Source: Candidatus Zixiibacteriota bacterium
GTDB taxonomy: Bacteria; Zixibacteria; MSB-5A5; GN15; FEB-12
Assembly (NCBI GenBank): GCA_034003725.1
Contig: JAVEYB010000011.1
Coordinates: 1 to 64,000, forward strand
Reading direction: 5' to 3'
DNA length: 64,000 nucleotides
The notes under the pieces were generated by a model. That model was not told the DNA's origin, searched no databases, and saw only the letters and a program-made list of their open reading frames with translations. Of the stretch, positions 10,942 through 53,678 are shown piece by piece (position 1 is the first letter of the stretch; each line of letters opens with the position of its first letter). A program made the translations under genes and the position numbers.

Positions 10942-10960
10942 TTTGCCGGGGAGGGTACTC

Positions 10961-17942: not shown

Positions 17943-18022
17943 CTCCCTTCACCGGCGAAGTATACACTCAACTCGCTGGAAAACCAAGCGTCCGGCGACG
18001 AGTCTGCCCGCAGCGGGACTAC

Positions 18023-18050
18023 TTGACAGACTCCGGGGCATCCGTACATT
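18023..18050 (+). promoter_or_regulatory. promoter of the dprA-like operon, leaderless
   Basis: Perfect TTGACA (18023) and TACATT (18045) with a 16-base spacer. The -10 box ends 5 bases before the ATG at 18056, so transcription would begin at the start codon. No Shine-Dalgarno site is present. Confidence 0.7.
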
Positions 18051-18055
18051 GCGTC

Positions 18056-18961
18056 ATGCCAACTATTAGCGAGTACTCCCCCCGGGTCCATCTCGTGGCC
18101 CTGTGCACGCTGACAGGAGTCAGCCCGCGCCTGTTCGAATTGCTGTTCGCCCGGTTCGGCGATACCGAACGGATACTGAGGGCCGATGTTTCGGCCCTGA
18201 CGGCGATAGGCGGAATGAGCGCTCCCCAGATCAAACGCATCGCCTCCGCCCGTGACCGGCTCGAAGACGCCCAGCGGTTCGTCAATCGATTGACCGAGCG
18301 GGAAATCCGCGTGATCTCATTCTTCGACGATGATTACGGCGAGTTGCTGACGGAACTGAACGACCCGCCTCCGATTCTCTACATACGGGGCGTTATGCCG
18401 GATCGCAGCCGAAAATCCGTAACGGTCGCAGGCGCGCACAACGCCACCGCAGAGGGGATCGAACTAACGACCAATCTCGCCCGCCGGTTCGGTCAGGCCG
18501 GGGTGCAGGTGATATCCAGTCTTCGGGGCGGGATCGACTCTGCGGCGCATCTCGGCGCCAAATCCGGCGGCGCCCCTTCGTTTGCCGTGATCGACACCGG
18601 CTTCGACCAGTTGACTGCACCATCGGCCATGCCGCTCGCCATTGACATCGTCGAACACGGCGGGGTGATCAGCGAGTACGCCCCGGAACAGATTTCCACG
18701 CACGAGACGCTGGAGCAGTCCAATCGGCTTCTGGCGGGCCTGGCGCAGGCGGTTGTCGTGACCGAGGTGTACTCGGATTCGGAAGCTACGCTCGATTTGC
18801 TGGCGTTCTGCAGGATGATCGGCAAGCTCGTGTTTGTCATGGCTGATCCTCACAAGGGCGCGCTGGCCGATGAGTCCGCGATGGCAAAAGCGCTCGAGGC
18901 GGGGGCTATTCCGATGAAAGGGCTGGAACACACCGACGATATCGTGCGTGCTCTCGTGTGA
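18056..18961 (+). CDS. divergent DprA/Smf-family protein
   Basis: 301 residues with the DprA plan: an N-terminal helix-hairpin-helix-like part (LLFARFGDTERILRADVSALTAIGGMSAPQIKRI), then DDDYGELLTELNDPPPILYIRG and a Rossmann-like domain (GIDSAAHLGAKSG, VIDTGFDQLTAPSAM, GGVISEYAP). DprA loads RecA on incoming single-stranded DNA. Several normally invariant motifs are altered: VGTR/VGSR is VAGAH, SGLARGID is SSLRGGID, and FPxRNRIIAGL is TLEQSNRLLAGL. It may thus have a changed ligand-binding role. First gene of a five-gene operon; the start is set by the promoter 5 bases upstream. Confidence 0.82.
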   Translation: MPTISEYSPRVHLVALCTLTGVSPRLFELLFARFGDTERILRADVSALTAIGGMSAPQIKRIASARDRLEDAQRFVNRLTEREIRVISFFDDDYGELLTELNDPPPILYIRGVMPDRSRKSVTVAGAHNATAEGIELTTNLARRFGQAGVQVISSLRGGIDSAAHLGAKSGGAPSFAVIDTGFDQLTAPSAMPLAIDIVEHGGVISEYAPEQISTHETLEQSNRLLAGLAQAVVVTEVYSDSEATLDLLAFCRMIGKLVFVMADPHKGALADESAMAKALEAGAIPMKGLEHTDDIVRALV

Positions 18962-36112: not shown

Positions 36113-37627
36113 TCAGAGCCCGTAAATCTCGCCGTACTTGGCTTTCATGTACGACATGAGGGGCTCATGCGAGAGCGGTTTGCCGGTGACTTTTTCGCAC
36201 AGCACGTTGGCCCGGTATCGCTGGCCGTGCCGGTGAATGTTTTTGCGCAACCAGCCGAGCAGTCTGCTGAAATCTCCCCGCCGGAAGTCATCTTCGAGAC
36301 CCGGCATATCGGCTTTCGCCTTCGCGAAGAACTGGGCGGAATACAGATTGCCGAGGGCGTAGGTCGGGAAGTACCCGATCAGTCCCGATGACCAGTGCAC
36401 GTCCTGCAGGCAGCCGTTGGCGTCCTTGTCGACCTCGATACCGAGGTATTCCTTGAACCGCTTGTTCCACTCCCCGTTCATGTCTTTTGGCCTGATCTCG
36501 CGTTTCGTCATGGCGCGTTCCAGTTCGAACCGCAGCATGATGTGCAGGTTGTAGGTGGCTTCGTCGGCCTCAACGCGTATGTACGACGGTTTCACGAAGT
36601 TCACGGCCCCGTAGAAATCGTCGAGCGAAACGTCGGCCAGCGAATCCCTGAAGATCCGTTTGGCCTGCGGCAGGAAGTACTCCCAGAAGGCTTTCGAGCG
36701 TCCCACCTGGTTCTCCCACATCCGCGATTGCGACTCGTGTATACCCAGCGAGCAGGACTCGCCCATCGGGGTACCGAAGTGCTTCTGCTTTTCGAGGCCC
36801 ATCTCGTAGAGGGCGTGGCCGGCCTCATGCATGGTGCCGAACAGGGCGTCGTTCAGGCGGTTGGGATTGTAGCGGGTCAGGATACGGGTGTCGCCGGGGC
36901 CGATCCCGGTACAAAACGGGTGCGTGGTGATATCCAGGCGACCGGCCTGGAAGTCGTACCCCATGGCGGCAGCCACGGACTCTCCGAAGATTCTTTGTTT
37001 GTCGACATCGTAGGCCCGGTGGACGATCGATTCGTCGGGTTTCTTCTTCGCCGATTTGATCGCCCCCACCAGCGGTACGAGCTCCTTGCGGAGCCCGGCA
37101 AAAGCCGACTCCACCTGTGCGACGGTGGCACCCGGCTCGTATCCGTCGAGCAACGCGTTGTACGGCTCTCCCTCATACCCGAATGCCTCGGCCTTCTTCA
37201 GAATCAGATCGAGGACCTTTTCGAGCCAGGGGACGAACATGGCAAAGTCGGATTTCTTCCGGGCTTCGGCCCACACCGGAGTGGCCTGCGCCGTGGTTTT
37301 GGCCAGCGCCTCCACCAGGTCATTGGGCAGTTTGGTCTGTTTATCGTACTCGTGGCGAAGCTCGCGGAGGTTCGCGGCCGCTTCCGACTCGGGGTCTTTG
37401 ACGAGGTCGGAGCTTTCGGCGGTTGCGATCAACTCGCCAATTCTGGGATTAACAAACTGTTCGTGGCACATGCGCGCTATCAAACCGATTTGTTCGGAGC
37501 GGTGCGCCACGCCGTTTTTCGGCATGTAGGTTTCCTGATCCCAGTGTAGAACCGACACGGTCGACGCCAGTGTCGATATCTCTTTGCATTTCCTGAGAAG
37601 CTCGTCGTATGCAGTCTGTGGTGTCAT
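36113..37627 (-). CDS. M32 family metallocarboxypeptidase (Taq carboxypeptidase type), copy 1
   Basis: 504-residue zinc carboxypeptidase with HEAGHALYEMGL (HExxH), LGIHESQSRMWENQVGRS (third ligand and substrate site), IRVEADEATYNLHIMLRFELE and the conserved N-terminal LHWDQETYMP. Cytosolic, no signal peptide. The start at 37627 has GAAGGAGATAG ahead of it. The adjacent gene upstream encodes a clear paralogue of the same length; the pair probably arose by tandem duplication. Confidence 0.95.
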   Translation of the reverse strand: MTPQTAYDELLRKCKEISTLASTVSVLHWDQETYMPKNGVAHRSEQIGLIARMCHEQFVNPRIGELIATAESSDLVKDPESEAAANLRELRHEYDKQTKLPNDLVEALAKTTAQATPVWAEARKKSDFAMFVPWLEKVLDLILKKAEAFGYEGEPYNALLDGYEPGATVAQVESAFAGLRKELVPLVGAIKSAKKKPDESIVHRAYDVDKQRIFGESVAAAMGYDFQAGRLDITTHPFCTGIGPGDTRILTRYNPNRLNDALFGTMHEAGHALYEMGLEKQKHFGTPMGESCSLGIHESQSRMWENQVGRSKAFWEYFLPQAKRIFRDSLADVSLDDFYGAVNFVKPSYIRVEADEATYNLHIMLRFELERAMTKREIRPKDMNGEWNKRFKEYLGIEVDKDANGCLQDVHWSSGLIGYFPTYALGNLYSAQFFAKAKADMPGLEDDFRRGDFSRLLGWLRKNIHRHGQRYRANVLCEKVTGKPLSHEPLMSYMKAKYGEIYGL

Positions 37628-37751
37628 GACTATCTCCTTCGCCCCAGCGGGCGCATCTGCGGACCTGACGTGAGTGTGCAAAGTACGTAAAACGTCCGGG
37701 TTCCGCCAGTATTTCCGGGATTTCCACCCCGGTATGAGCCGTGCCGTGCCG

Positions 37752-39269
37752 TCACCGCGTGATGCCGTAGATCGGTTCGTACTTCGCGTAGAGGTAGTCG
37801 ATCAGCGGCCGGTGCGACAGCGGCTGCCCGGTCACTTCCTTCACCAGTTCGGTCGCGCGGTAGCGGCGTCCCTGCCGGTGGATGTTTTTCCGAAGCCACT
37901 CCAGCAGCCCGGAGAAGTCTCCACGGGCGAAGTCATCCTGCAGGCCGGGCATCGCCTTGTTCGCCGCAGCGTAGAACTGCGCGGCGTAGAGGTTGCCCAG
38001 CGCATAGGTCGGGAAATAGCCCATGTAGCCGGCCGACCAGTGCACATCCTGCAGGCAGCCGTTGGAGTCCCTGTCGACCTCGATACCGAGGTAGTCTTTG
38101 AACCGCTTGTTCCACTCACCCGCGACGTCTTTCGCTTTCAACTCGCCGTGCACCAGAGCGACCTCGAGTTCAAACCGAAGCATGATGTGCAGGTTGTACG
38201 TGGCTTCGTCGGCTTCGACGCGAATATACGACGGGGTCACGTAGTTCATGGCAGCATACATGTCATCGAGCGAGACGTCGCTCATTTCGTCGTGGAAGAC
38301 GCCTTTCGCGATCGGGAAGAAATATTCCCAGAAACCCCGGGAGCGGCCGACCTGGTTTTCCCACATCCGCGACTGCGATTCGTGAATCCCCGATGAGACC
38401 GAGTCTCCCATCGGCGTACCGTAGTGGTCGCGGTCGAGGCCCATGTCGTAGAGGGCGTGGCCGGTTTCGTGCGTCGTGCCGGTGAGTCCTTCGGCGAGAT
38501 CGTCGGGATACCAGCGGGTGCAGATGCGGGTATCGCTGGGGCCGAGTCCGGCGCAGAACGGGTGGGTCGTGATATCGAGCCGACCCGAGTTGAAGTCATA
38601 GCCGATTCGCTGCGAGACCATCTCGGCGAAGATGGCCTGCTTTTTGACGTCGTACGGGCGCTTGATGACGCCGATATCGGGGCGGCGCGGGGCATCCTTG
38701 AGTTTCGCGACTAGCGGGACGAGGTCCTTGCGGAGGCCTTCGAATACTTTCACAACTTCGGCGGTTTTGGCGTGCGGCTCGAAGCCGTCGAGGAGGGCGT
38801 CGTAGCGCTCGCCATCGTAGCCGAGGGCGTCGGCTTTGCGAAGGTTCAACTCGACGTTTTTCTCGAGCCAGGGAGCGAACATGGCGAAGTCGGATTTCTT
38901 GCGGGCCTCCATCCACACCTGCCGCGCTTTGGTGGTGGTGCGGATGATTTCCTCGACCAGTTCGGAGGGCAGTTTGGTTTCGAGGTCGTACATGCGCCGC
39001 CATTCGCGGACGTTGACCGCCTCGACCGAGAGCGGGTTTTTGACGAGCTCGGAGCTTTCGCAGGCCGAGAGCCAGTCGTTGATGCGCGGGTCGGTGTCGC
39101 GTTCGTGGACCATGCGACCGATCAGCGACATCTGTTCCGAGCGATGGTCGACGCCGGCGCCTGGCATGTAGGTATCCTGATCCCATTCGAGGACCGAGTT
39201 GACGGAGGCGAGGGTGGTGTTTTCTTTGAAGTGGTTGATCAGGTTTCTGTACGCGTCTTGGGCGGTCAT
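37752..39269 (-). CDS. M32 family metallocarboxypeptidase, copy 2
   Basis: 505 residues, similar to copy 1 along its whole length. The zinc site is HETGHALYDMGL and the second motif SGIHESQSRMWENQVGRSRGF; LEWDQDTYMPGAGVDHRSEQ opens the enzyme. Both copies keep all metal ligands and so both are likely active, perhaps with different C-terminal residue preference. The gap between the two genes is 124 bases. Confidence 0.95.
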   Translation of the reverse strand: MTAQDAYRNLINHFKENTTLASVNSVLEWDQDTYMPGAGVDHRSEQMSLIGRMVHERDTDPRINDWLSACESSELVKNPLSVEAVNVREWRRMYDLETKLPSELVEEIIRTTTKARQVWMEARKKSDFAMFAPWLEKNVELNLRKADALGYDGERYDALLDGFEPHAKTAEVVKVFEGLRKDLVPLVAKLKDAPRRPDIGVIKRPYDVKKQAIFAEMVSQRIGYDFNSGRLDITTHPFCAGLGPSDTRICTRWYPDDLAEGLTGTTHETGHALYDMGLDRDHYGTPMGDSVSSGIHESQSRMWENQVGRSRGFWEYFFPIAKGVFHDEMSDVSLDDMYAAMNYVTPSYIRVEADEATYNLHIMLRFELEVALVHGELKAKDVAGEWNKRFKDYLGIEVDRDSNGCLQDVHWSAGYMGYFPTYALGNLYAAQFYAAANKAMPGLQDDFARGDFSGLLEWLRKNIHRQGRRYRATELVKEVTGQPLSHRPLIDYLYAKYEPIYGITR

Positions 39270-39736: not shown

Positions 39737-40399
39737 TCATGGTTTGAAGATGAGTTCTTCGGGTTTGCCCGGAACCACCCGGCGCACCTCCAAGACGAAA
39801 TCCAGTATGTCCGATACACCGTATTTGACGGCTACCTCTCCGAGCTGTATCCTCACGGAACCATCTCTTCGGCGTGAGACATGCGGATACTGGAAGAGTG
39901 TACTAAAAGTGGTTGATCCCCTTGGAGTTGGACCGTAGGGAATTGCACCAGAGTTGATCTTCGAAAGGCGGATGCTGTCCTGGTACCTCTCTATTAGCTT
40001 CTGCGAATCCACAACAATGACACAATGCGCTCGCTTCTTATAGGCTCTTCCAGAAAGCAGGCGCTGAAGTCTATCTGCTGACGGCCAGAAGAAGACCATG
40101 CCGTTTAGCAGACGATACCACTCCTGCGGACTCATATCTGTCAGACTCGCAGAGAGCTTCTTCTCGTTGAGAGGCTTCTGGTCGCGAATGACAGCGTAAC
40201 CGAGCTCGGGATGTTCGATTCTGACCGATTCTGGTCGACGATTTGACTCTATAGAGTGGCGTTGGTTCCCTACTATCTCAAACTTGTCCAAAAGCGCAGT
40301 TGTGCTAAGAAGTCCGTACTCGCGAATGTTGTCCCAAGAAGAGAGCTCTGCCATATGGAACAATCGAGGGAACTCTTGCACGAAAGCGTCCACCGTCAT
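39737..40399 (-). CDS. DUF7002-like protein, candidate DarT-like ADP-ribosyltransferase
   Basis: 220 residues. The N-terminus EFPRLFHMAELSSWDNIREYGLLSTTALLDKF has the layout of ART-fold starts (FH...W..I...GLLS) and fits the uncharacterised DUF7002 group. Later come MVFFWPSADRLQRLLSGR, INSGAIPYGPTPRGSTTF, and VRIQLGEVAVKYGVSDIL; the last, with Glu188, resembles the catalytic-Glu segment of DarT (xAEVLV...V...I). These are pattern resemblances only. Start at the ATG at 40399, 7 bases after the upstream gene; a GTG at 40417 overlaps it. Last gene of a three-gene operon with a macro-domain protein, which would fit an ADP-ribosylating toxin. Confidence 0.7.
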   Translation of the reverse strand: MTVDAFVQEFPRLFHMAELSSWDNIREYGLLSTTALLDKFEIVGNQRHSIESNRRPESVRIEHPELGYAVIRDQKPLNEKKLSASLTDMSPQEWYRLLNGMVFFWPSADRLQRLLSGRAYKKRAHCVIVVDSQKLIERYQDSIRLSKINSGAIPYGPTPRGSTTFSTLFQYPHVSRRRDGSVRIQLGEVAVKYGVSDILDFVLEVRRVVPGKPEELIFKP

Positions 40400-40406
40400 T
40401 ACTGGC

Positions 40407-42011
40407 TTACCACGCACGTCTGTCTATGATACTCCTCTCGTGGAATCTGGTGGATATTAGTGTAACTGGCGCACAGGCGACACGCTCAATCTCCTCTATG
40501 AATCGGATGGTATCAGATTTTAGCTGTTCGAATCGCCTTGCCCTTTTGTTCGTACCGGCCAAATAATCGACAAAGGTGAGGGCAATGTCCGTAGGCGCGT
40601 TCAGCGATGCTGCTTTGCGCAAGAGATACCAGTCAAACTCAGCAACGCGCCTCTGCCTCCCAGTAGTTGAGGTGACTTCTGCTTTTTTCAGTTCGTCTTC
40701 AGGAATACCGCTTCTTTCGGCGACAGTTGCCCAGGTAACTTCGCGGCTCATCGGTCCCGAGGTCAGGCCATCCGCAGCCGGGTCCTGAACACGAATTGGG
40801 TAGCTGCGACAAACCATGACGACCTTTCTCACGCGACTGGAAGAGATACCTGATTCAGCCAGACAGCCCGTCACTGTAGTATCGCGAGATGTCACATGAG
40901 GGTATTGCCCGTGAAATAGGCTCAACCCTGTCCCCTGGGTGCCTTCAAGAAAAATACTATCCCCCCTCGCGTAGGCGTCGTCCAGAACCGCGCAGCTCTC
41001 TTTGATGAAAGGTCTCAGAGCCTTCTCGTCTTTGGCCAATTTGACACTCTTGGATCGGCCCATGATTCTCCTAGCCTGAGCAGCGCCTGCTCCCGAAGCT
41101 GTGCTGGCTATGGTATCACGCAGGACCGACTCCTTGCGTATGTCTTGGTTCGTAATCAACATCACCTGTGGATCAATCGACAGTCGGTTCTTGTCGACGT
41201 GGCAATCAGCAATCTCCCTGAGCAACGTTGGAACAAAAACCACTGCTCCCGGACCGATCAACAAACGAGAAGATGGTGAACATCCGGTACCGGACGGGAG
41301 CGAGTGAAACGTATATCTCGGGCTGTACACAGTATGCCCCGCGTTTGGTCCACCGACGCGTATTAGGAGCTGATACTCGGGAGCTAGGTAGTGTGCAATG
41401 TGTCCCTTGCCCTCACTCCCATATTGTCCGCCGACGAGCACGTCTACTGAACGTTGGAAATTTCGACCGTAGAAACCAATGTGGGCTGCGGCCCGTACGA
41501 ACACATCGGCCGGACTACACATGTTCGTGTCAATCACGACGTCTGCATTCTGGGCAAGCTTGCTTATGTTTCGCTCTGTCTTGTTGGCTTGTAGCTGGTC
41601 GTAGTGCCGCACTTCCCGATAACGCGCGGAAGCCCGAGTTTGATACCTCGAAGCGAGGACTTCTTTGGGGGCTGAAAGGTGGATATGTATAACGCGCCTG
41701 CCGTAGGCGTTTCGAATCTCGTCTATTTGTCGCTGGATTCTCACAGAATCCACAACGATAATGCAGCCGTCCGGCGCATTTCTCTCAACCTTCTCCAAAT
41801 CGGCGAGCACCCAATTTACGCCCTTACGTCGGTCGAGCCTATCTCCTAGCTTCTGATACTCCTCACGGACGCGATTAGCCTTAGGAAATCGCTGCCGGAT
41901 TCCTTCGCCCGTGATCACGGGAAACACGTCAAAACGTTCCTTGAGTGACTGCCTTAGACTGGTTTTGCCTGAAGCGATAGGACCCGAAAGCAGCACCACT
42001 TTCTCTACCAT
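40407..42011 (-). CDS. P-loop NMP-kinase-like domain fused to a PurZ-like adenylosuccinate synthetase
   Basis: 534 residues in two domains. Residues 1-185: a nucleotide-kinase-like P-loop fold with LLSGPIASGKTS (10-18), IIVVDSVR and IHIHLSAPKEVLASRY. Residues 188-534: an adenylosuccinate synthetase fold with GGQYGSEGKG (194-203), GGPNAGHT (220-227, catalytic His226), LEGTQGT (355-361), YPHVTSRDTT and TSTTGRQRR (447-455). The Asp of GDEGKG, the base that activates IMP, is Ser199 here, as described for phage PurZ, which acts on dGMP. The C-terminal part is shorter than in housekeeping PurA. Good Shine-Dalgarno (GGGGAG). Middle gene of the operon; clearly not the housekeeping purA. Confidence 0.85.
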   Translation of the reverse strand: MVEKVVLLSGPIASGKTSLRQSLKERFDVFPVITGEGIRQRFPKANRVREEYQKLGDRLDRRKGVNWVLADLEKVERNAPDGCIIVVDSVRIQRQIDEIRNAYGRRVIHIHLSAPKEVLASRYQTRASARYREVRHYDQLQANKTERNISKLAQNADVVIDTNMCSPADVFVRAAAHIGFYGRNFQRSVDVLVGGQYGSEGKGHIAHYLAPEYQLLIRVGGPNAGHTVYSPRYTFHSLPSGTGCSPSSRLLIGPGAVVFVPTLLREIADCHVDKNRLSIDPQVMLITNQDIRKESVLRDTIASTASGAGAAQARRIMGRSKSVKLAKDEKALRPFIKESCAVLDDAYARGDSIFLEGTQGTGLSLFHGQYPHVTSRDTTVTGCLAESGISSSRVRKVVMVCRSYPIRVQDPAADGLTSGPMSREVTWATVAERSGIPEDELKKAEVTSTTGRQRRVAEFDWYLLRKAASLNAPTDIALTFVDYLAGTNKRARRFEQLKSDTIRFIEEIERVACAPVTLISTRFHERSIIDRRAW

Positions 42012-42020
42012 TATCTCCCC

Positions 42021-43379
42021 CTATCCTCCAAATAGACTTCCTTGTGTAGGCTGACGTGGCCGCGTTCTTTCGGGCAAGTCGTAGATTGTTACGGAAATGC
42101 CTCTCTTGCAGAGGGCTTCTTCAACCAGTTCCGAGATGATCTGCCAGTCTCCACCACCTTCACCGCACCCGATTCTCGGCATATGTACGGACGCACTCAA
42201 TTTAAGTGCTGATGCAGACAAGTTATCTAAGCATTTTAGGAGCGCTCCGTATCGGACACGCGTCCGACGTTCCGGGCCATAGCCCTTCTGAGCGATCAAC
42301 TGCGCCACATGGAGTGAATCACTAACCTTCGTCAATCTTGTGTTCCCCAATTGCAGTTCGGACCTGTTTGACATCACCCAGTCTCGAAAAGACGCGTGGA
42401 CATCTGGAAATGTCTGCTGTATTGAGCGACCAAAACCCGCTCCCCAATTGAGTGCCTTATCGTTGACAACGTGAGCGATTACTCGAACACCTTGTCCCCT
42501 CGGCTTGAGTGCATTCCCCACAAGGTAGTTGATACCCCAAGAGGCTTTTGGCCTTTGAGACGGTGAAGAGACGATTCCTACGACTCTTGGGAGAGAGTCT
42601 CCGGGATAAGACGGAATCGCCGTGCACTCCACATGCAAAGTAGGTGCGGACTTCAGCCAGCGTTCGTCTCCTTTCGCCGTATAGCCAATGGCTGTACACT
42701 CTGCAACGATACTACTGGAAGGCAGTTGAAGCCCCTGGGGAATCGATAAAGAGAAGGCCCTCGACGGACGCGAGTAGTCCAAAGCATAACGGTATCCCTT
42801 CTCACTGTGAATTCTCGGCGAGGCACAGAATACAGCACAGGAAGCATGACTTATTCTCGAAACTCTGAGAAGGATCGACTCCATCGACACATCGAACCGA
42901 CGTCGAACATCTAGCAGACTATCGATGGAAGTATCCTTATCCAAGAGATTCCTGAAGCTGCCTACCGGCATAAGTAGTTCCGCAGCTCCGATGTTGCAGA
43001 GCATCTCCAGTTGCCAGTCATCTCCACTCATTTCCTCTTTGTGCAGTCGATTCCTTCGGTGCTCGCGAAAATCAGGGAAGAGAGTATGTGCCAGTTCGTG
43101 CGCGATCGAGTATTTTATTCTCGAAGCGGGTCTATTGGGATTGAATTGAATCTCAGCGCCTTTCTCGCCTAGCGAAATCAAACACGCATCCATGACGTCT
43201 TCGGAAGGTCGCAAGGTAACTCCCAAGATTCCTGCCAACTCAAACGGATCATAGGGTGGTCCAGTCCACCCTTTTTGAATCGCTGTTAGAACAAGTGATC
43301 GTGCCTTGGCCTCTACCAGAGCGCTAGGATCGCCCAACTTGCCAAGTTCCTTCACAGAAGGGTGTGTCCAATGGAACAT
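42021..43379 (-). CDS. ImmA/IrrE-type metallopeptidase fused to TARG1/DarG-like macro domain
   Basis: 452 residues. Residues 22-180: ImmA/IrrE fold with SIAHELAHTLF (zinc motif 91-101) and a helix EMLCNIGAAELLMP carrying the likely third ligand. Residues 285-437: a macro domain of the TARG1/Poa1p/DarG kind with YLVGNALKPRGQGVRVIAHVVNDKALNWGAGFG and MPRIGCGEGGGDW; Asp411 is the candidate catalytic residue. A 100-residue linker joins them. ImmA-type peptidases cleave repressors, and DarG-type macro domains remove ADP-ribose from DNA. First gene of the operon, 9 bases ahead of the PurZ-like gene. Lower G+C than the flanks. Confidence 0.88.
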   Translation of the reverse strand: MFHWTHPSVKELGKLGDPSALVEAKARSLVLTAIQKGWTGPPYDPFELAGILGVTLRPSEDVMDACLISLGEKGAEIQFNPNRPASRIKYSIAHELAHTLFPDFREHRRNRLHKEEMSGDDWQLEMLCNIGAAELLMPVGSFRNLLDKDTSIDSLLDVRRRFDVSMESILLRVSRISHASCAVFCASPRIHSEKGYRYALDYSRPSRAFSLSIPQGLQLPSSSIVAECTAIGYTAKGDERWLKSAPTLHVECTAIPSYPGDSLPRVVGIVSSPSQRPKASWGINYLVGNALKPRGQGVRVIAHVVNDKALNWGAGFGRSIQQTFPDVHASFRDWVMSNRSELQLGNTRLTKVSDSLHVAQLIAQKGYGPERRTRVRYGALLKCLDNLSASALKLSASVHMPRIGCGEGGGDWQIISELVEEALCKRGISVTIYDLPERTRPRQPTQGSLFGG

Positions 43380-44774: not shown

Positions 44775-47700
44775 ATGAAGCAGCTTCGCGTGGGGCGCGC
44801 CATGGCAATGGCGCTCACATTCGCCCTGTGTCTTTCAGCCACCGCTCAGGCCGACGAGTGGTGGGCCGATTCACTCGCTACGTACAAACTCACCAAGGCT
44901 CCACAGGAGCGCTCGCTGCAGTTCCTGCTCGATTCGCTGGGGTACGAGATCGACGTTGACGACGACGAACTCGGGGTAGAGGTTTTGTGCGGTCAGCCGG
45001 GGACGAACACCGCGACCTTGACGCTGGAAGTGGCCGGTTCGGCGGTCTACGCGACATCGGGCTTCTACGAGGCCGGGGACACATCGGTCTTCTACCAGTT
45101 GTTCGGACCGTCCAATGTGCCGGGTGATTCCGTGCAGTTTACGGTTGGTTCGTTCGACGCGGTGGGGTTCTGGATGCGGCCGAATCTGTCGGGCAACAAC
45201 GCGCGGTGGCTCACGGAGCAGGACTTCAACGAAGACGATTTCGACCACGCATGGATATTCGCGACCGGCAATCCCCACGAGTACCTGATCGCGTTCGAGG
45301 ATCTGCCTGACGGCGGCGACGCCGACTACCAGGACCTGGTTATCAAGGTGCGGTTCGCCAACGACGTGCCGTACCTGACGCTTCCGGGCGACACGACGAT
45401 CGTACAATGCGGGAGCGACTCGATTTGTTTTGCGGTCGGCGCGTACGACGACAACTGCCAGGGGGATTCGATCTGGCTGACGATGCTTTCGGGCGACGGT
45501 GTGTTTACGCCCGAAGCGGGGGTGTCGTCGATTTCATCGCAGCACTGTTTTCTGCCGGTCGGCCCCGGCACGTACGAGTTTATTTTCGAGGTGGAAGACA
45601 TCCTTGGTGCGATAGATGTCGACACCCTGACAATCACGGTGGCGGCCGGATCCTCGCCGCTGGTTTCGGTGCCCGACACGACGGTGGACTGGTGCGATCT
45701 GCAGACCATATGTCTTCCGTTGTCGATACTGGATCCCGACTGTGATGTGGTGTCGGTGACGACCAGTCTGGGCAGCTACGGCGGCAACGCCCTGAGTTTC
45801 GATCAGATCATGCGATATACGGAGTTGGGGGCGACGATTACGCAGGTTGGCGGCGGGGCGCCGGGGACGCTTCTGACGGAGTCATCGGATTTCGTGGGGC
45901 CGGTCAACTCGCAGTCGGGGGTGAGTTTCTCGCTGCCGAATTTCGCGTTTGCGACGATCGTCCATTCGACCGGCTCGTTCCCGGTCGGGCCGGGCCTGTA
46001 CAATTCATCGGACAACCTGCTGGGCGCGCCGACCGATTTGACCTTTACGCTTCCGGGCCCGGGCGGTCCGGATGGCGGGGCCGGGGACGGGTCGATTGAC
46101 TTTTCTTCGGGCAACAATGTCACGATTGGATTCGGGCAGGATATCACGTCGTGTAACGGCGCGGAAGTGGATTTCATATTGTTCACCAACACGGCGTCGG
46201 CCGGCAACGGCACGATCCGGTTCCGCGACGGCGGGACGACGGTATACACGTATACCGGGCCGATCCCGGGCGCATCGGCAGGTACCGGCACCGGCGGGTT
46301 GACGATCGATTTGCCGGACGGGGTCACGTTCGACCGGGTGCGGATATCGAACAACAGCGGCAGTTTCGAAGTTGACGCCGTTGCGGCCCGCACCGCGGCA
46401 TCGCCCAGTGCAACGGATATCTGCTTCACACCCGACACGGCGGGCGTCTACGAAGTGATCGTGACGGCCACGGACGCGTGCGGGAATATCGGGCAGGATA
46501 TCGCGTACGTGACGGTGAATCTCAACGAGGCTCCCGTGGCCGATGCGGGGCCCAACCAATCGGTGTTCCAGTGCGCGCCGGCACAGATCTGTTTGCCGGT
46601 CGGTTTTACCGATCCCGACAATAATCTCGAGATTACGGAGCTTGTCCAGGGACCCGGCACGCTGGCCGGCAACCAGATCTGCTTCACCCCCGCTTCGTCG
46701 GGGACGTTCACCTTCGTCATTCGTGCTGTTGATTCGTGCGGGGTGTCGGATCGGGATACGGTTGTCGTTTCCGTGACGCGCAACGCGTCGCCGGTGGCGG
46801 CGCAGCCGGCGGGAGTCAGCCTGTTTTTGTGCGGTCCCCAGCAGGTTTGTCAGACGTTCACCGCAACCGATCCCAACGGCGGTTCGTTGACCTGGACGCT
46901 GCTGAGCGGACCGGGGTCGATCTCCGCAGCGGGAGAGTATTGTTTCACGCCGACGACGGGCGGCGTGTTTGACGCGTCGGCGGTGGTCGCCGACTCATGC
47001 GGCGCTGCCGATACGGTCACGGCGAGTTTTACGATCACGATGAATGCCGCGCCGGTGGCGGACGACCCGACGTCGCCGGTTGATGTCGCGCAGTGCGACC
47101 CGCAGGAAATATGTTACCAGTTTACTGCGACCGACGCCGACGGCGGCCCGCTTGCCTGGACGATGTTGTCGGGGGACGGCGCGCTATCGGCATCGGGCGA
47201 GTGGTGCTTCACGCCGGCCGGCAGCGGGAGCTACACGGCTCAGGCGGTGGTTGCCGATACGTGCGGTGCGGCCGATACGACGACGCTGACGTACGACGTG
47301 ACGGTGAACGAAGCGCCATCGATCGCGCTCGGCCCGGATACGTCGCTGAGCCTCTGCGCGCCGCAGCCGATTTGCCTGTCGTATGTCGTTGACGACGCCC
47401 AGGGAGCGGCGGGGCTGATCGAGGCGATGGTATCGGGTTTTGGGACGCTCGACACAGCGGCGAACCAGATCTGTTTTACCCCGGTGTCGTCCGGAAGCTA
47501 CGAATTCATAGTGAGTGTGACCGACCCGTGTGGGGCAGTTGATCGTGACACTATTGAGGTAAGTGTTGCGTTTGGCGTGAGCGCAGCCATAGGCTGCCCG
47601 ACCGGGTCCATAGATGTGTTTTTGTGCGGACCCGATTCCATCCATTACATGCTCGATATCACACCGGCTTCGGCTGCGGTGACGGTCATGGGTGGCAAGT

Positions 47701-50700
47701 ACGAAAACGACAAGCTCGATATCTATGCGGATACGTCCGGTACTTACATCGTCCAGGTCATCGCCACGGAGGCCTGCGGCGCCGACACGTGTCAGCTGGT
47801 ATTTGAAGTCGAGATCGGCGAGTCGCCGCAGATCACCTGTCCGCCGCAGGCGTCGCAGTTTATCTGTGACGCCGGCGCCAGCGTGTGCGTGCCGGTGGGT
47901 ATCGTGGGAGCCGACACGAATGTGACGGTCAGTCCGATCGGGAGCTACTCCGGCGGGAATGTTTGCTTCACGGCGGATACGTCGGGTCTCTACACGCTCA
48001 CGATGGTGGCGGCGACGCCGTGCGGCAGCGACACGTGTGAGTTGCTGGTCGATGTGTCGGTCAACAGCGCGCCGGTTGCGGTCGACCCGGCCACGCCGGT
48101 CGACACGTTCCTGTGCGCCCCGGACGCCATTTGTTATGATTTCGCGGCGTCCGACGCCGACAGCCAGACCCTGACGTGGGCCAAGCTGTCGGGCGACGGG
48201 TCCGTGAGCGCATCGGGCCAGTGGTGCTTCACGGCCTCGGCCTCGGGCACCTATACGGTGGTGGTGGTCGTAAGCGATCCGTGCGGGGATGCGGATACGA
48301 CCACGCTGACGTACACGGTGACGCTCAATGGCCCGCCGACGGTCACGCTGGGTACGGACAAGTCGCTGGTTGTGTGCGCGGGTCAGCAGGCGTGTTTCCC
48401 GTATACGGTGAGCGACCCCGACAACAACCTGGCGTCGGTCGCACTCACGTCCGGTCCGGGCACGCTCGACGAAATGGCCCAGACCGTGTGCGTGACGCCG
48501 GCGACATCGGGAACGTATCAGTTTGTCATTACCGCTACGGACAGCTGCGGCCTGCAGGATGTCGACACCCTCCGGATAACGATCCAGGTCAATCGTCCGC
48601 CGGTGGCGAATGCGGGTCCGGACCAGACGGTCGGGCAGTGCTCGGTGGGCCAGATTTGTCTGCCGGCGACATGCACTGATCCCGACGGTAATCTGGTGAC
48701 GTGCGAGCTCGTGACCGGGCCCCCGGGGGCCGGTTACGACGGCACCACCATTTGTTTCACACCTACCGGCACCTGGGATTACGAATTTGTACTCAAGGCG
48801 ACGGACGCGTGCGGATCGGTTGATTACGATACAGTCGTAGTCTACTACACGCTTAATTCGGCGCCGGTGGCCGATGCGGGCGCCGACCAGGCGGTGTTCC
48901 AGTGCGCGCCGCAGCAGATATGCTGGCCGGCGGGTTGCAGCGATCCGAACGGGCCGGCCGACCTCGCTGAGTGCAATCTGATCAGCGGTCCCGGCACGTA
49001 TGACGGCGCCAAGATATGCTTCACGCCGTCCGGTACGGGCGTGTACGAGTTCGTACTCGAGGCGGTCGACAACTGCGGGCGGACCGATCGGGACACGGTG
49101 ACGATCGACGTCACGATAAACTCGGCCCCCGTGTGCGAGATTCCCAACGATACAACCATATTCCAGTGCACGCCGACCCAGGTGTGCCTCCCCGCGTTCT
49201 CGACCGATGTCGACGGCAATCTCGATAATTGCCAGGTGAATGTGGGGACGCTGGTCGGTTCCACCTGGTGCTACACACCGTCGTCGAGCCAGACCGTCAC
49301 GGTCACGATGACGTGTGTCGACGAGTGCGGCGCGCAGTGCCAGTCGCAGTTCGCGGTGGAATTTCTGATCAACGGTGATCCGACGATTGCATTCGGCGCC
49401 GACACGAGTCTCTTCCTCTGTTCGATGGAGGAGGTGTGTCTGCCGTACATAGCCGACGATCCCAACGATCCTCGGCCGACGACGGTCACGCTGGTTTCCG
49501 GACCGGGCACGCTTGACGAGATCAACTCGCAGGTGTGTTTCACGCCGTCGGGCGCCGGTGTATTCGAGTTTGTCATTCGTATCGAGGACGAATGCGGCAA
49601 ATTCGATCAGGATACAATAAACGTAACGGCTGGACTCAATTCGACGCCGGTCGCCGATGCCGGGGCCGACCAGACGTTGTTCCTCTGTGATATCGGACAG
49701 CCAATGTGCTGGCCGGTGTCGTGCAGTGACGTCGACGGCAATCTGAGTGATTGCCTGTTCAACGGACCGGGCACGTACGACGGCTCGACAATTTGCTTCA
49801 CCCCCGCCGGTCCCGGGGTGTTTACGTTCACCCTCCGTGCCGAAGATGACTGCGGCGCCGCGATGGTCGATACGGTTGTCGTCAGTGTCGCGGTCAACAG
49901 CGCGCCGGTGGTGACGCTCCCGGATGATTTCCCGGTCTTCCAGTGCACGCCGGAGGAGATCTGCGTGGATTACACGGTTGCGGACGCGGACGGCCTGTCG
50001 CTGATCATCGAGAGCATGTCTTCGGGATACGGCACCATAGACACTTCGGCCAACCAAATCTGCTTTACGCCTGGCGCCGCCGGCGCGTACGAGATTATCG
50101 TGAGTGCGGTTGATTCCTGCGGCGCGGCGGGCGCGGACACCGTGACGGTTACGGTCTCGTTCGGCCAGTTTGCCCTCATAAGTTGTCCGGCTGCTCCTAT
50201 AGACGTATTCCTTTGCGGCCCCGATTCGATCTGCCAGAGCATGAGCATCACGCCGTCCGACGCGAGCGTAACGGTCTCGCAGGGCGTGTACGACGGCGGC
50301 CAGCTGTGCTTCTATGCCGACACGGCGGGCACATACGTGATTGACGTGATAGCCGAGTCCAGCTGCGGCGCGGACACCTGTCAGCTGGTGTTCAATGTCG
50401 ATATCGGCCAGGCGCCGCAGATCGCCTGTCCTGACCCGGTGGTGCGGTTTGTCTGCGACGCCGGATCATCGGTGTGTATCCCGGTCGGCGTCATGGGAGG
50501 GGGCGCGACGGTGACGGTATCGCCGTTTGCCACGTACTCGGGCGGTTCGGTTTGTTTCAACGCGGATACATCGGGTCATTACGAAATCACCATGATTGCC
50601 GCGACCGCATGCGGCAGCGATACCTGCCTGATCGTCGCCGACATCACGTTGAACGGCGCGCCGGTCGCCGACGATCCGGCCGGCCCGGTGGACACGGCGC

Positions 50701-53678
50701 TGTGCGATCCGGGACAGATCTGTTACCAGTTTACTGCTGTGGACCCTGACGGAGGGGCGCTCATCTGGACCAAAACAACGGGGAACGGTTCAGTGTCGGC
50801 CGCTGGCCTCTGGTGCTTCAGCGCCACCGCCAGCGGCAGCTACTCCGTAACGGCCACGGTCAGTGATTCCTGTGGAGCATCGGATCAGGTCACCCTGACG
50901 TACAATGTCGATCTGAACGATGCCCCCGTGGTCAGTCTGGGGCCGGATGTCACGCGGTTCGTGTGCGCGAGCGAGCAGATCTGCCTGCCGTACACGGTCA
51001 CCGACAGCGACAACAATGTCGAGCTCGAGACGCTGGTTTCCGGCGCCGGTTTGCTCGACACGGCAGCCAACGAGTTGTGTTTCGCCGCCGATACCGCCGG
51101 TGTTTATCGTTTCATCGTACAGGTGACGGACGCCTGCGGCGACAACGACAGCGATACGATTAATGTCACGGTCGGAATCAACAGACCGCCGGTTGCAGGC
51201 GCGGGCGCCGACCAGACCATATTCCAGTGCGCGCCGGTCCAGGTCTGCTGGAGCGCGACAGCGACCGATCCCGACGCCAACCTCGACAGCGCCTATGTGG
51301 CAGACGGGCCGGGGACGTTCGCGAGCGGCCAGATCTGCTTCACGCCGGATACGGCCGGCGTGTACCGGTTCATCCTGAGAGCGGTTGATGACTGCGGCGT
51401 GAGCGATCAGGATACGGTGCTGATAACGATCGACTTGAATGCCGGACCGGTGTGCAGCGTCCCGGCCGATACAAGCGTGTTCCAGTGCACGCCGACGCAG
51501 ATATCGCTGCCGGTGGGCGCGGCCGATCCGGACGGCAATTTCGATCATTGCGAGATTGTCTCCGGTCCCGGTTCACTGGTGGGCGGCAACTGGGTCTTTA
51601 CTCCGTCCGGGGATCAGAGTGTCACCGTTGCGGTCATGTGTATCGACCAGTGCGGCGCGACGTGCACCGACACGTTCCACGTGACGATCGACATCAACAA
51701 CCGACCGGTCGTCAGCGCGGGTGCGGACAGCACGGTAATCACCTGCGACGGCGGCACGATCTGCCGGACGATCGTGTCCAGTGATCCAAACGGCAATCTG
51801 GATTCGGTGTGGATCGCCTCGGGGGCGGGACATTATAACGCCGTCACCGGCCAGTACTGCGTGACGGTCCCGTACGGCGACGGCAACGATCGCCAGTACA
51901 CGACCATCTTCGCCGCCGTGGATTCGTGCGGGCTGGAATCCCGCGATACGCTCCGCATCACGATCGACTTCAACGAGCCGCCGGTGATCGAGCTGCCGCC
52001 TGATTTTGTGGCGTATCTCGATCAGGTCGGTGAACTCTGTATCGATGTCGAGATCAGCGACGCCGACGACAATCTCGCCGGCTACAGTGTCGCGCCGATC
52101 GGCGACTGGGATCCGTTTACCGGGGAGTTGTGTTTCGACGCCGATACCGCCGGCACGTACGAGATTATCGTCACCGCCTTTGATATGTGCGGCGACTCGA
52201 CATCGGACACGGTGGAGATCGAGGTACAGGTCGACGAGTGCATCCATGTCCAGATCGAACAGCGAACCAACGTGTTCCAGGGGCAGGTAACCACGCTCGA
52301 CATCCTGCTTACCGGTTCCGGCAAGGAACTGGGCGGGTTTGACCTGTTGATCCAGTACGATGCCAGCGCGCTGACGGCGACGGCTGCGCACCTCGGCGCT
52401 CTGCCGCTCAACTGCGGCTGGGAGTACTTCCAGTACCGTCACGGAGCGTCCGGCAACTGCGGCAGCGGCTGTCCGTCGGGGCTGATCCAGCTGGTCGCGA
52501 TTGCCGAGACCAATAACGGCGCCTATCATCCCGGCTGTTATCTCGACGCGGATGTCGGCGTTTTGGCGTCGATAGATTTCCTGGTCACGAATGACCGGAC
52601 GCTCGAGTGTCTCTGGATCCCGGTGAACTTCTTCTGGGTCTCGTGCGCGGACAACTCGTTCTCGTCACGGGGCGGCGACACACTCTGGGTCGCCCGCAGC
52701 ATTTTCGATCCGGGTTATAACAACATCACCAACCACAATTTCGGTCTGCCGGGTGCGCTGGGGCTTCCGGATTACTGTCTGGAGGGACAGGGTCCCGACA
52801 AGCCGCGGCCGATTCGCTGTGTCGATTTCACGAACGGCGGGATCAAGATCATCTGCGCGGACGAGATCGACGATCGCGGCGATATCAACCTTGACGGTCT
52901 GGCGTACACGATCGCCGACGTGGTGATGTTCACCAACTACTTCATCTACGGAACGTCGGCGTTCGGTTCGGGTCTGGCGGTTGAGGCGGCGACGGCGGCG
53001 TCGGACGTTAACGTCGACGGCCTGCCGTTGACGGTCGCGGACCTCGTTTACCTGATCCGTGTGGTGGTCGGCGACGCATCGCCGGTTCCGAAGCCGAATC
53101 CGGACGCCGCGTACGAGGCTGATATCGCATTGCGCGAGGGCGTGGTGACGATCGAGCACGCGGGCGCCAGGATCGGCGCCATGTACGTGGTGCTCGAGGG
53201 CGAGGTCGAGCCGGAGTTACACCCGAACGCGGCGGACATGCAGATCGAGTTCAACTACGACGGCATGTACACGCGGGTGCTGGTGTTCACGAACGACGCA
53301 TCGGCCTCGCTGGAAACCGGCGAAGTGCTTCTGGTCGGCACGAAGACGTCGATCAAAGAAATCGAGCTCGGATCGTATGATGGCTTAGTGATGGCGGCGA
53401 ATATGCAGGTGCTGCCGACAACCTATTCTCTGTCGCAGAACTATCCGAATCCGTTCAACCCGAACACGACAATCGAGTTCTCTCTCCCGGTGAAGTCGGA
53501 GTACCGATTGACCATTTACAACATTCTCGGTCAGCAGGTCGAGCAGTTCTCCGATGAGCTTGACGCCGGGTACCACAAGATAGAGTGGGATGCCGGTAGA
53601 TACGCTTCAGGTGTCTACTTCTATCGTCTGACGGCTGGTGAATTCAGCGCCACCAAGAAGATGGTTTTGCTGAAGTAA
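44775..53678 (+). CDS. giant secreted repeat protein with cohesin/dockerin-like region and C-terminal sorting domain
   Basis: 2967 residues. Signal peptide (MKQLRVGRAMAMALTFALCLSATAQA); DUF4114-like domain around 120-200 (VGFWMRPNLSGNN, YQDLVIKVRF). From 200 to 2490 there are about 24 Ig/cadherin-like units of 85-100 residues, most opening like NSAPVADAGADQ-VFQCAPQQICWP with a conserved Cys pair and ending CG--DRDTV-V-V. Then a cohesin-like domain (from 2488), dockerin-like loops RGDINLDGLAYTIADVV and SDVNVDGLPLTVADLV (near 2700-2745), and at 2889-2967 a sorting/FlgD-like domain YPNPFNPNTTIEFSLPV...GVYFYRLTAGEF. Presumably a surface adhesin or stalk. Clear terminator after it. Confidence 0.92.
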   Translation: MKQLRVGRAMAMALTFALCLSATAQADEWWADSLATYKLTKAPQERSLQFLLDSLGYEIDVDDDELGVEVLCGQPGTNTATLTLEVAGSAVYATSGFYEAGDTSVFYQLFGPSNVPGDSVQFTVGSFDAVGFWMRPNLSGNNARWLTEQDFNEDDFDHAWIFATGNPHEYLIAFEDLPDGGDADYQDLVIKVRFANDVPYLTLPGDTTIVQCGSDSICFAVGAYDDNCQGDSIWLTMLSGDGVFTPEAGVSSISSQHCFLPVGPGTYEFIFEVEDILGAIDVDTLTITVAAGSSPLVSVPDTTVDWCDLQTICLPLSILDPDCDVVSVTTSLGSYGGNALSFDQIMRYTELGATITQVGGGAPGTLLTESSDFVGPVNSQSGVSFSLPNFAFATIVHSTGSFPVGPGLYNSSDNLLGAPTDLTFTLPGPGGPDGGAGDGSIDFSSGNNVTIGFGQDITSCNGAEVDFILFTNTASAGNGTIRFRDGGTTVYTYTGPIPGASAGTGTGGLTIDLPDGVTFDRVRISNNSGSFEVDAVAARTAASPSATDICFTPDTAGVYEVIVTATDACGNIGQDIAYVTVNLNEAPVADAGPNQSVFQCAPAQICLPVGFTDPDNNLEITELVQGPGTLAGNQICFTPASSGTFTFVIRAVDSCGVSDRDTVVVSVTRNASPVAAQPAGVSLFLCGPQQVCQTFTATDPNGGSLTWTLLSGPGSISAAGEYCFTPTTGGVFDASAVVADSCGAADTVTASFTITMNAAPVADDPTSPVDVAQCDPQEICYQFTATDADGGPLAWTMLSGDGALSASGEWCFTPAGSGSYTAQAVVADTCGAADTTTLTYDVTVNEAPSIALGPDTSLSLCAPQPICLSYVVDDAQGAAGLIEAMVSGFGTLDTAANQICFTPVSSGSYEFIVSVTDPCGAVDRDTIEVSVAFGVSAAIGCPTGSIDVFLCGPDSIHYMLDITPASAAVTVMGGKYENDKLDIYADTSGTYIVQVIATEACGADTCQLVFEVEIGESPQITCPPQASQFICDAGASVCVPVGIVGADTNVTVSPIGSYSGGNVCFTADTSGLYTLTMVAATPCGSDTCELLVDVSVNSAPVAVDPATPVDTFLCAPDAICYDFAASDADSQTLTWAKLSGDGSVSASGQWCFTASASGTYTVVVVVSDPCGDADTTTLTYTVTLNGPPTVTLGTDKSLVVCAGQQACFPYTVSDPDNNLASVALTSGPGTLDEMAQTVCVTPATSGTYQFVITATDSCGLQDVDTLRITIQVNRPPVANAGPDQTVGQCSVGQICLPATCTDPDGNLVTCELVTGPPGAGYDGTTICFTPTGTWDYEFVLKATDACGSVDYDTVVVYYTLNSAPVADAGADQAVFQCAPQQICWPAGCSDPNGPADLAECNLISGPGTYDGAKICFTPSGTGVYEFVLEAVDNCGRTDRDTVTIDVTINSAPVCEIPNDTTIFQCTPTQVCLPAFSTDVDGNLDNCQVNVGTLVGSTWCYTPSSSQTVTVTMTCVDECGAQCQSQFAVEFLINGDPTIAFGADTSLFLCSMEEVCLPYIADDPNDPRPTTVTLVSGPGTLDEINSQVCFTPSGAGVFEFVIRIEDECGKFDQDTINVTAGLNSTPVADAGADQTLFLCDIGQPMCWPVSCSDVDGNLSDCLFNGPGTYDGSTICFTPAGPGVFTFTLRAEDDCGAAMVDTVVVSVAVNSAPVVTLPDDFPVFQCTPEEICVDYTVADADGLSLIIESMSSGYGTIDTSANQICFTPGAAGAYEIIVSAVDSCGAAGADTVTVTVSFGQFALISCPAAPIDVFLCGPDSICQSMSITPSDASVTVSQGVYDGGQLCFYADTAGTYVIDVIAESSCGADTCQLVFNVDIGQAPQIACPDPVVRFVCDAGSSVCIPVGVMGGGATVTVSPFATYSGGSVCFNADTSGHYEITMIAATACGSDTCLIVADITLNGAPVADDPAGPVDTALCDPGQICYQFTAVDPDGGALIWTKTTGNGSVSAAGLWCFSATASGSYSVTATVSDSCGASDQVTLTYNVDLNDAPVVSLGPDVTRFVCASEQICLPYTVTDSDNNVELETLVSGAGLLDTAANELCFAADTAGVYRFIVQVTDACGDNDSDTINVTVGINRPPVAGAGADQTIFQCAPVQVCWSATATDPDANLDSAYVADGPGTFASGQICFTPDTAGVYRFILRAVDDCGVSDQDTVLITIDLNAGPVCSVPADTSVFQCTPTQISLPVGAADPDGNFDHCEIVSGPGSLVGGNWVFTPSGDQSVTVAVMCIDQCGATCTDTFHVTIDINNRPVVSAGADSTVITCDGGTICRTIVSSDPNGNLDSVWIASGAGHYNAVTGQYCVTVPYGDGNDRQYTTIFAAVDSCGLESRDTLRITIDFNEPPVIELPPDFVAYLDQVGELCIDVEISDADDNLAGYSVAPIGDWDPFTGELCFDADTAGTYEIIVTAFDMCGDSTSDTVEIEVQVDECIHVQIEQRTNVFQGQVTTLDILLTGSGKELGGFDLLIQYDASALTATAAHLGALPLNCGWEYFQYRHGASGNCGSGCPSGLIQLVAIAETNNGAYHPGCYLDADVGVLASIDFLVTNDRTLECLWIPVNFFWVSCADNSFSSRGGDTLWVARSIFDPGYNNITNHNFGLPGALGLPDYCLEGQGPDKPRPIRCVDFTNGGIKIICADEIDDRGDINLDGLAYTIADVVMFTNYFIYGTSAFGSGLAVEAATAASDVNVDGLPLTVADLVYLIRVVVGDASPVPKPNPDAAYEADIALREGVVTIEHAGARIGAMYVVLEGEVEPELHPNAADMQIEFNYDGMYTRVLVFTNDASASLETGEVLLVGTKTSIKEIELGSYDGLVMAANMQVLPTTYSLSQNYPNPFNPNTTIEFSLPVKSEYRLTIYNILGQQVEQFSDELDAGYHKIEWDAGRYASGVYFYRLTAGEFSATKKMVLLK

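Follow-up and report, generated by a model that had tools for sequence, protein, structure and literature searches.

The 64,000-nucleotide stretch of Candidatus Zixiibacteriota DNA analysed here (the window) contains a probably mobile cassette of three genes. These encode a zinc protease joined to a macrodomain, an NMP-kinase-like domain fused to a PurZ-type adenylosuccinate synthetase, and a DUF7002 protein that is predicted to be a DarT-like ADP-ribosyltransferase (ART). The cassette points to an undescribed system of bacteria and archaea that is probably directed against viruses. The parts are individually familiar; what appears new is their combination, the occurrence of a PurZ-type enzyme across cellular genomes and the association with a DarT-like protein. 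A literature search of incomplete coverage found no paper on the kinase-PurZ fusion or the cassette, in line with the initial annotation of this DNA, which had regarded such a fusion as uncharacterised; the PADLOC collection used dates from 2023, and a recent description may be missed.

RESULTS

A kinase-synthetase fusion lies in a three-gene cassette

The initial annotation described a kinase-like domain fused to an adenylosuccinate synthetase whose catalytic Asp had become Ser, and the gene is exactly so (Table 1). Residues 325 to 488 of the fusion match the Pfam family Adenylsucc_synt (E = 8e-49), with a second matching stretch more N-terminal, and residues 3 to 132 match the P-loop kinase families AAA_18 and AAA_33 slightly below the Pfam cut-offs. 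Homologues were drawn from rhizobial plasmids and from the best 79 loci of 415 genome stretches. Since at least 79 genome loci encode full-length homologues (45 to 60% identity) and Ser is fixed in all 91 of the 91 homologues with a readable motif (GSEGKG), the fusion ORF is neither an artefact nor a product of chance.

Table 1. Features of the cassette, in window coordinates
Feature	Coordinates	Strand	Basis
Three-gene cassette (protease-macrodomain, fusion, DUF7002)	39737..43379	-	Gene order
Protease-macrodomain gene, 452 aa; first gene of the cassette, ends 9 nt before the fusion	42021..43379	-	Domain matches
ImmA/IrrE (M78) zinc-peptidase domain, HExxH (H94, E95, H98)	42858..43151	-	Domain match, conservation
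Macrodomain, nearest BT1257 and SCO6735	42072..42533	-	Alignment
Whole fusion gene, NMP-kinase-like + PurZ-type adenylosuccinate synthetase, 534 aa	40407..42011	-	ORF + domain matches
N-terminal NMP-kinase-like domain, residues 1-180	41472..42011	-	Predicted structure, conserved residues
PurZ-type adenylosuccinate synthetase domain, residues 189-532	40416..41447	-	Pfam match, alignment, tree
Ser199 (GSEGKG), replacing catalytic Asp of PurA	41415..41417	-	Alignment
His226 of GPNAGHT, as in PurA and PurZ	41334..41336	-	Alignment
DUF7002 gene, 220 aa, predicted DarT-like ART fold	39737..40399	-	Pfam match + predicted structure

The distribution of the fusion is wide and patchy. Carriers belong to at least 10 phyla (Planctomycetota, Verrucomicrobiota, Acidobacteriota, Pseudomonadota, Myxococcota, Actinomycetota, Chloroflexota, Synergistota, Thermoplasmatota and others), and the fusion was absent from all 60 related genomes examined. 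The cassette was probably acquired, because its G+C content (0.521) lies below that of the rest of the window (0.587; lowest other 3.6-kb stretch, 0.548). The ATG of the DUF7002 gene is at 40399, 7 nt past the fusion stop, and an alternative GTG at 40417 would overlap the fusion. A promoter scan upstream of the cassette gave a signal no better than chance. One archaeal locus holds two converging copies of the fusion (L060:8001-9608, plus strand, and 10381-11985, minus strand).

The synthetase domain belongs with PurZ and PurZ0

In the window fusion the motif reads GGQYGSEGKG, with Ser199 in place of the Asp, and both His226 of NAGHT and the STTGRQRR loop are retained; the alignment confirmed all of these features as first annotated. 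The corresponding motif is GSTGKG in PurZ, GSEAKG or GSEGKG in PurZ0 and GDEGKG or GDEAKG in PurA. The initial annotation had proposed a tree of PurA, PurZ and PurZ0, with a Ser scattered within PurA as the result that would speak against it. In a maximum-likelihood tree, the bootstrap of which had not fully settled, the fusions, phage PurZ and PurZ0 form one clade (support 100/99), which also takes in further viral sequences and a single stand-alone enzyme from rhizobia. The domain thus joins PurZ and PurZ0 outside housekeeping PurA, and the Ser is fixed in this one clade. PurA, a short archaeal PurA and enzymes of deazapurine clusters, all with Asp, fall outside it. A larger quick tree agrees, and a single Asp-to-Ser change would suffice to explain the topology.

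The fusion carries the PurZ loop (PIRV-QDPAADGLT-SGPM; the insertion after PIRV is merely short in the rhizobial members) and, by alignment, also has the shortened GPNAGH motif and has lost the Lys of TKLD. In S-2L PurZ, dGMP has the equivalent Ser next to its 2-amino group, and Val241 is displaced toward C2' by the inserted loop (PMC8342488). Sequence counterparts of both the conserved Val and the inserted loop (V241, 2'-OH exclusion) are present in the window fusion. Asp482 is retained at the position of the guanine-binding Asp of PurA, so that either ATP or GTP may be the preferred cosubstrate. The fusion scores 192.1 bits against the NCBIfam PurZ model NF038379, below its threshold of 300 bits, which is a curated naming cut-off and not a functional test.

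The fusion might instead be a diverged PurA of housekeeping type, with IMP still as its substrate and a regulatory kinase domain attached, and the retained His226 and TTGRxRR loop would suit such an enzyme. However, a separate full-length PurA is encoded on another contig of the host genome (G000:C13), so that the fusion is a second copy, and 19 of the 20 other fusion-carrying hosts tested have a PurA of their own. With the Ser fixed and the clade of PurZ type, this reading is highly improbable. An ordinary PurA with a scattered Ser is ruled out by the tree and the separate host PurA.

Two Rhizobium leguminosarum plasmids (L022:5372-12934 and L023) carry an Asp-type synthetase paralogue in a cluster with folE, purB, QueE, IMP dehydrogenase, nitrile hydratase, QueC and HAD genes; the cluster looks like one for deazapurine (toyocamycin-like) biosynthesis. 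By analogy, the cassette could make a secreted purine-type antibiotic or cofactor, with the ART-like protein as an unusual tailoring enzyme, and the PEP-synthase-like protein added in one subtype (below) would agree with this. We consider such a role very unlikely. The deazapurine paralogues keep the Asp and lie outside the Ser clade, by which the fusion was also rejected as a deazapurine-antibiotic cluster enzyme, and the cassette has neither a transporter nor more tailoring genes and, in most of the ten loci sampled, has a defence-like neighbour (below). A Sinorhizobium medicae plasmid (L021:5317-9958) encodes a stand-alone Ser-type synthetase without DUF7002, a second cellular context for a PurZ-type enzyme; its companions are dCTP-deaminase/dUTPase-like, divergent HD YfbR-like and ThiF-like proteins.

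The N-terminal domain is a likely NMP kinase

The nearest solved structure to the model of the N-terminal domain (pLDDT 94.3) is 3lw7, an AMP-bound adenylate-kinase-related protein (Z 18.8, 165 residues, 2.6 Å), and adenylate and UMP/CMP kinases are also structurally close. The P-loop reads GPIASGKT, and R49, G56, D60, Q95, H109, H111, R122 and E146 are invariant in 49 aligned rows. Within the NMP-binding motif DSxRxxxQ, D88 is kept in 47 of the 49 rows and R91 in 48; R126 is kept in 45. The NMP-kinase fold, the P-loop and the D-x-x-R-x3-Q motif are thus all present, and the domain is likely an active NMP kinase as predicted from its modelled structure. The initial description of this domain as NMP-kinase-like is borne out by the 3lw7 match and the motif. 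Further matches of the domain are to the P-loop portion of the dCTPase model in PADLOC and, weakly, to an anti-phage dCTP deaminase. In four loci (L091, L093, L096 and L111), an extra stand-alone kinase-like ORF lies immediately upstream of the fusion, and L091 has a peptidase-like gene where DUF7002 would stand.

DUF7002 is a predicted DarT-like ADP-ribosyltransferase coupled to the fusion

The DUF7002 model (pLDDT 94.5; best Foldseek E, 4e-5) resembles DarT1 (8baq; Z 11.0, 163 residues, 3.6 Å) and Thermosipho DarTG (7omu; Z 10.6). Both rank above all other structures among Foldseek's own matches after realignment, a set outside which other ART families may lie. A Tpt1 fold was rejected (Z about 9, about 95 residues), the DarT matches being higher and longer. 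Ten residues are invariant in 72 homologues: H15, R55, R72, D73, F103, Y120, N149, G151, F165 and E188. H15, R55 and E188 occur in the same order as the catalytic H17, R52 and E152 of DarT1 (PMC11543638), a putative equivalence drawn from order and fold. Pfam returns DUF7002 alone and NCBIfam and PADLOC return nothing, so that no DarT sequence model matches the protein. From its modelled fold, DUF7002 is predicted to be a DarT-like ADP-ribosyltransferase. The literature search, whose coverage was incomplete, found no paper on DUF7002.

DUF7002 is present in 90 of 95 fusion loci and the protease-macrodomain gene in 67 of 95. Because all 95 loci were picked for carrying the fusion, the converse was examined by sampling two taxa (794 genomes) with DUF7002 as the anchor. 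This yielded four strong new matches, each with the fusion adjacent (4/4), and four divergent matches without it. In the divergent loci L242, L243, L244 and L245, no fusion lies nearby, and in L242 the DUF7002 region is C-terminal in a longer ORF. The initial annotation had pictured an isolated enzyme of a nucleotide pathway. Its PurZ-type and kinase-like character stands; its isolation does not, as the predicted ART adjoins the fusion almost always in cells. Because that gene nearly always, and the protease-macrodomain gene usually, accompany the fusion there, the cassette probably does more than run a simple biosynthetic pathway.

The third protein joins an M78 peptidase to an SCO6735-like macrodomain

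The M78 domain also matches the PADLOC model capP. CapP-type proteases regulate defence operons. The macrodomain aligns with SCO6735 and BT1257 at E values of about 1e-28 to 1e-30, with Q364 and N306 opposite Gln85 and Asn27 of SCO6735 (the catalytic Gln and the supporting Asn), and Q364 is present in 62 of 63 protease-macrodomain homologues. The catalytic Lys of the DarG type is absent, an SCO6735-like Gln standing there, and the match to DarG is weak. SCO6735 strips thymidine-linked ADP-ribose from DNA (PMC9411070). No paper on an M78-macrodomain pairing was found in the same incomplete literature search. The protein is no universal antitoxin, because about 30% of fusion loci are without its gene and none is adjacent in the HD/PEP-synthase-like subtype.

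Companion genes and neighbourhoods suggest a possible link to nucleotide pools and defence

Among the companions counted, the protease-macrodomain gene occurs alone in 59 loci and with a MazG-like gene in 7. HD and PEP-synthase-like genes accompany the fusion in 11 loci, a subtype that forms a single clade (support 99), and one more locus has both companion sets. MazG is alone in 4 loci, and the remaining loci are without counted companions. In total, dNTP-pool partners comprise 12 HD, 11 MazG-like and 1 deoxynucleoside kinase (dNK) genes. Judged by sequence, these appear to belong to the enzyme classes with which Z-phages manage their dNTP pools. The rhizobial HD protein was rejected as a close DatZ relative (E just 3e-4, across the HD motif), and the MazG-like neighbour gave no alignment with the candidate MazG gene of phage SH-Ab 15497; therefore, only the same enzyme classes are claimed.

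At a threshold of 1e-8, the nearest large neighbour matched a PADLOC model in 8 of 10 random chromosomal loci, a small sample, compared with 1 of 10 control proteins, and some PADLOC models are generic. The neighbour matches include DISARM DrmD, type IIG restriction (RM) and AbiU. Rhizobial fusion loci adjoin AbiEii, SIR2, VapBC, RelA/SpoT-domain and recombinase genes. The flanks of the cassette in the window are ordinary (thyX and two M32 carboxypeptidases), with no defence genes. The two carboxypeptidases are tandem paralogues beside the cassette (36113-37681 and 37752-39269, minus strand). Elsewhere in the window, 44775-53678 (plus strand) encodes a giant protein of 2967 aa that has PKD/Ig-like repeats and, at its C terminus, a sorting-like motif of the NYPNPFNP type. 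The product of 17876-18961 (plus strand) matches PADLOC ShosA models (E = 2e-35) but may simply be DprA-like and of the ordinary kind.

Viral contigs carry the fusion without DUF7002

Four viral contigs (L107, L108, L110 and L113) carry the fusion without DUF7002. A DNA polymerase A gene lies upstream of the fusion in L108 and L110, and deoxyribosyltransferase-like and MazG-like genes lie near it in L107 and L113. In PurZ0 phages, the NDT-like DmtZ adjoins PurZ0 (PMC12884076). In the tree, L107 and L110 are nested within the fusion clade, and L108 and L113 diverge close to its base. These contigs are candidates for new Z-genome phages. Because phages use the same fusion without an ART, they argue for nucleotide synthesis as its core function.

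This bears on the idea that the kinase-synthetase protein is a sensor, which would detect dGMP or some other NMP set free by infection and respond with a nucleotide signal that activates the ART or the M78 protease. An NMP-binding kinase joined to a synthetase and a CapP-like M78 domain could serve such signalling. However, no nucleotide-sensor domain of a known kind was found in the ART, and viral contigs with the fusion beside a DNA polymerase and without ART or protease suit synthesis better. We regard signalling as quite unlikely.

DISCUSSION

The best explanation of these data is a conflict module resembling DarTG in which one arm, of PurZ type, makes nucleotides; we give it about an even chance of being correct. 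The PurZ-type domain would probably combine (d)GMP with aspartate to form N6-succino-2-amino-(d)AMP, and the kinase domain would phosphorylate this succino-nucleotide, or the Z nucleotide that host PurB makes from it, to the diphosphate. DUF7002 would be the toxic effector, ADP-ribosylating a nucleobase in DNA or a nucleotide, and the protease-macrodomain protein would restrain the ART or, through its macrodomain, reverse it. The analysis itself establishes which domains are present, the place of the synthetase in the Ser clade, the modelled ART fold, the conservation of catalytic residues, the operon coupling and the wide but patchy distribution; from these we infer the substrates, the target, this order of steps and an antiviral role in conflict with phages.

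The connection between the two arms is the weakest step of this mechanism. DarT1 modifies the exocyclic N2 amino group of guanine, and 2-aminoadenine (Z) has the same group. Since Z carries that group and the two arms are inseparable in cells, we prefer a link in which the PurZ-kinase arm would supply a nucleotide or base that is the target or trigger of the ART. Against the module as a whole are the retained Asp482, the loci that lack the protease-macrodomain gene and the non-defence flanks in the window. By analogy with SCO6735, the closest macrodomain that has been characterised, a thymidine preference would fit poorly with a simple guanine- or Z-directed ART. The fullest version is a new class of prokaryotic immune system in which 2-aminoadenine, or its succino-nucleotide, is made and then becomes ADP-ribosylated, either itself or in the DNA that contains it, while the protease-macrodomain protein shields the host; this version is doubtful.

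The main rival has the two arms acting in parallel. A DarTG-like toxin-antitoxin would work beside an independent drain on dGMP, or beside toxic dZTP, during infection, and the ART would leave the PurZ product untouched. In E. coli, expressing the Z-cluster of S-2L is toxic (PMC8342488). The MazG, HD and dNK neighbours fit manipulation of dNTP pools, and the matches of the kinase domain to the dCTPase P-loop and, weakly, to an anti-phage dCTP deaminase agree with it. Yet the predicted ART and the PurZ-kinase protein are almost never apart in cells, suggesting one pathway, and we judge parallel action to be rather unlikely.

PurZ chemistry has been described as a phage means of replacing adenine in viral DNA, and in one survey PurZ-type sequences were viral apart from a few archaeal relatives (PMC12884076). 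In the present data, an enzyme of PurZ type occurs in bacteria and archaea from many phyla, with a kinase domain attached and its gene coupled to that of a predicted DarT-like toxin. If Z nucleotides are its product, the "alien base" is also in use by cells, most likely in their conflicts with viruses, and the question of where phage PurZ came from is reopened. DUF7002, a family without a known role, gains a testable function. Should 2-aminoadenine prove to be what is ADP-ribosylated, a viral genome-modification enzyme would have been turned into a weapon.

Comparison with known systems

The fusion shares with PurZ and PurZ0 (phiVC8, S-2L and SH-Ab 15497; Ghobes and Wayne) the Asp-to-Ser change, the PIRV-insertion-SGP loop, the shortened GPNAGH and the clade. 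It differs from them in its NMP kinase domain, its coupling to a predicted ART and its wide spread in bacterial and archaeal genomes, and from housekeeping PurA in having Ser199 instead of the Asp of GDEGKG and in lying outside the PurA clade. Like Z-genome phages, the viral contigs that bear it have DNA polymerase A, deoxyribosyltransferase-like or MazG neighbours. Anti-phage dCTP deaminases have a similar P-loop kinase-like N terminus joined to a nucleotide-altering enzyme, whereas the second domain of the fusion is an adenylosuccinate synthetase and not a deaminase.

As in DarTG, a protein with a predicted DarT-like fold, and with invariant H, R and E residues in the order seen in DarT1, has a macrodomain partner in most loci. 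Unlike in DarTG, DUF7002 is without a sequence match to DarT, and the PurZ-kinase gene sits between the ART and macrodomain genes. The macrodomain differs from DarG in being SCO6735-like, with Gln instead of Lys, and in having a zinc-protease domain attached. It retains the catalytic Gln and Asn of the SCO6735 and BT1257 hydrolases; in contrast to those enzymes, it is fused to an M78 peptidase and encoded within a PurZ-kinase operon.
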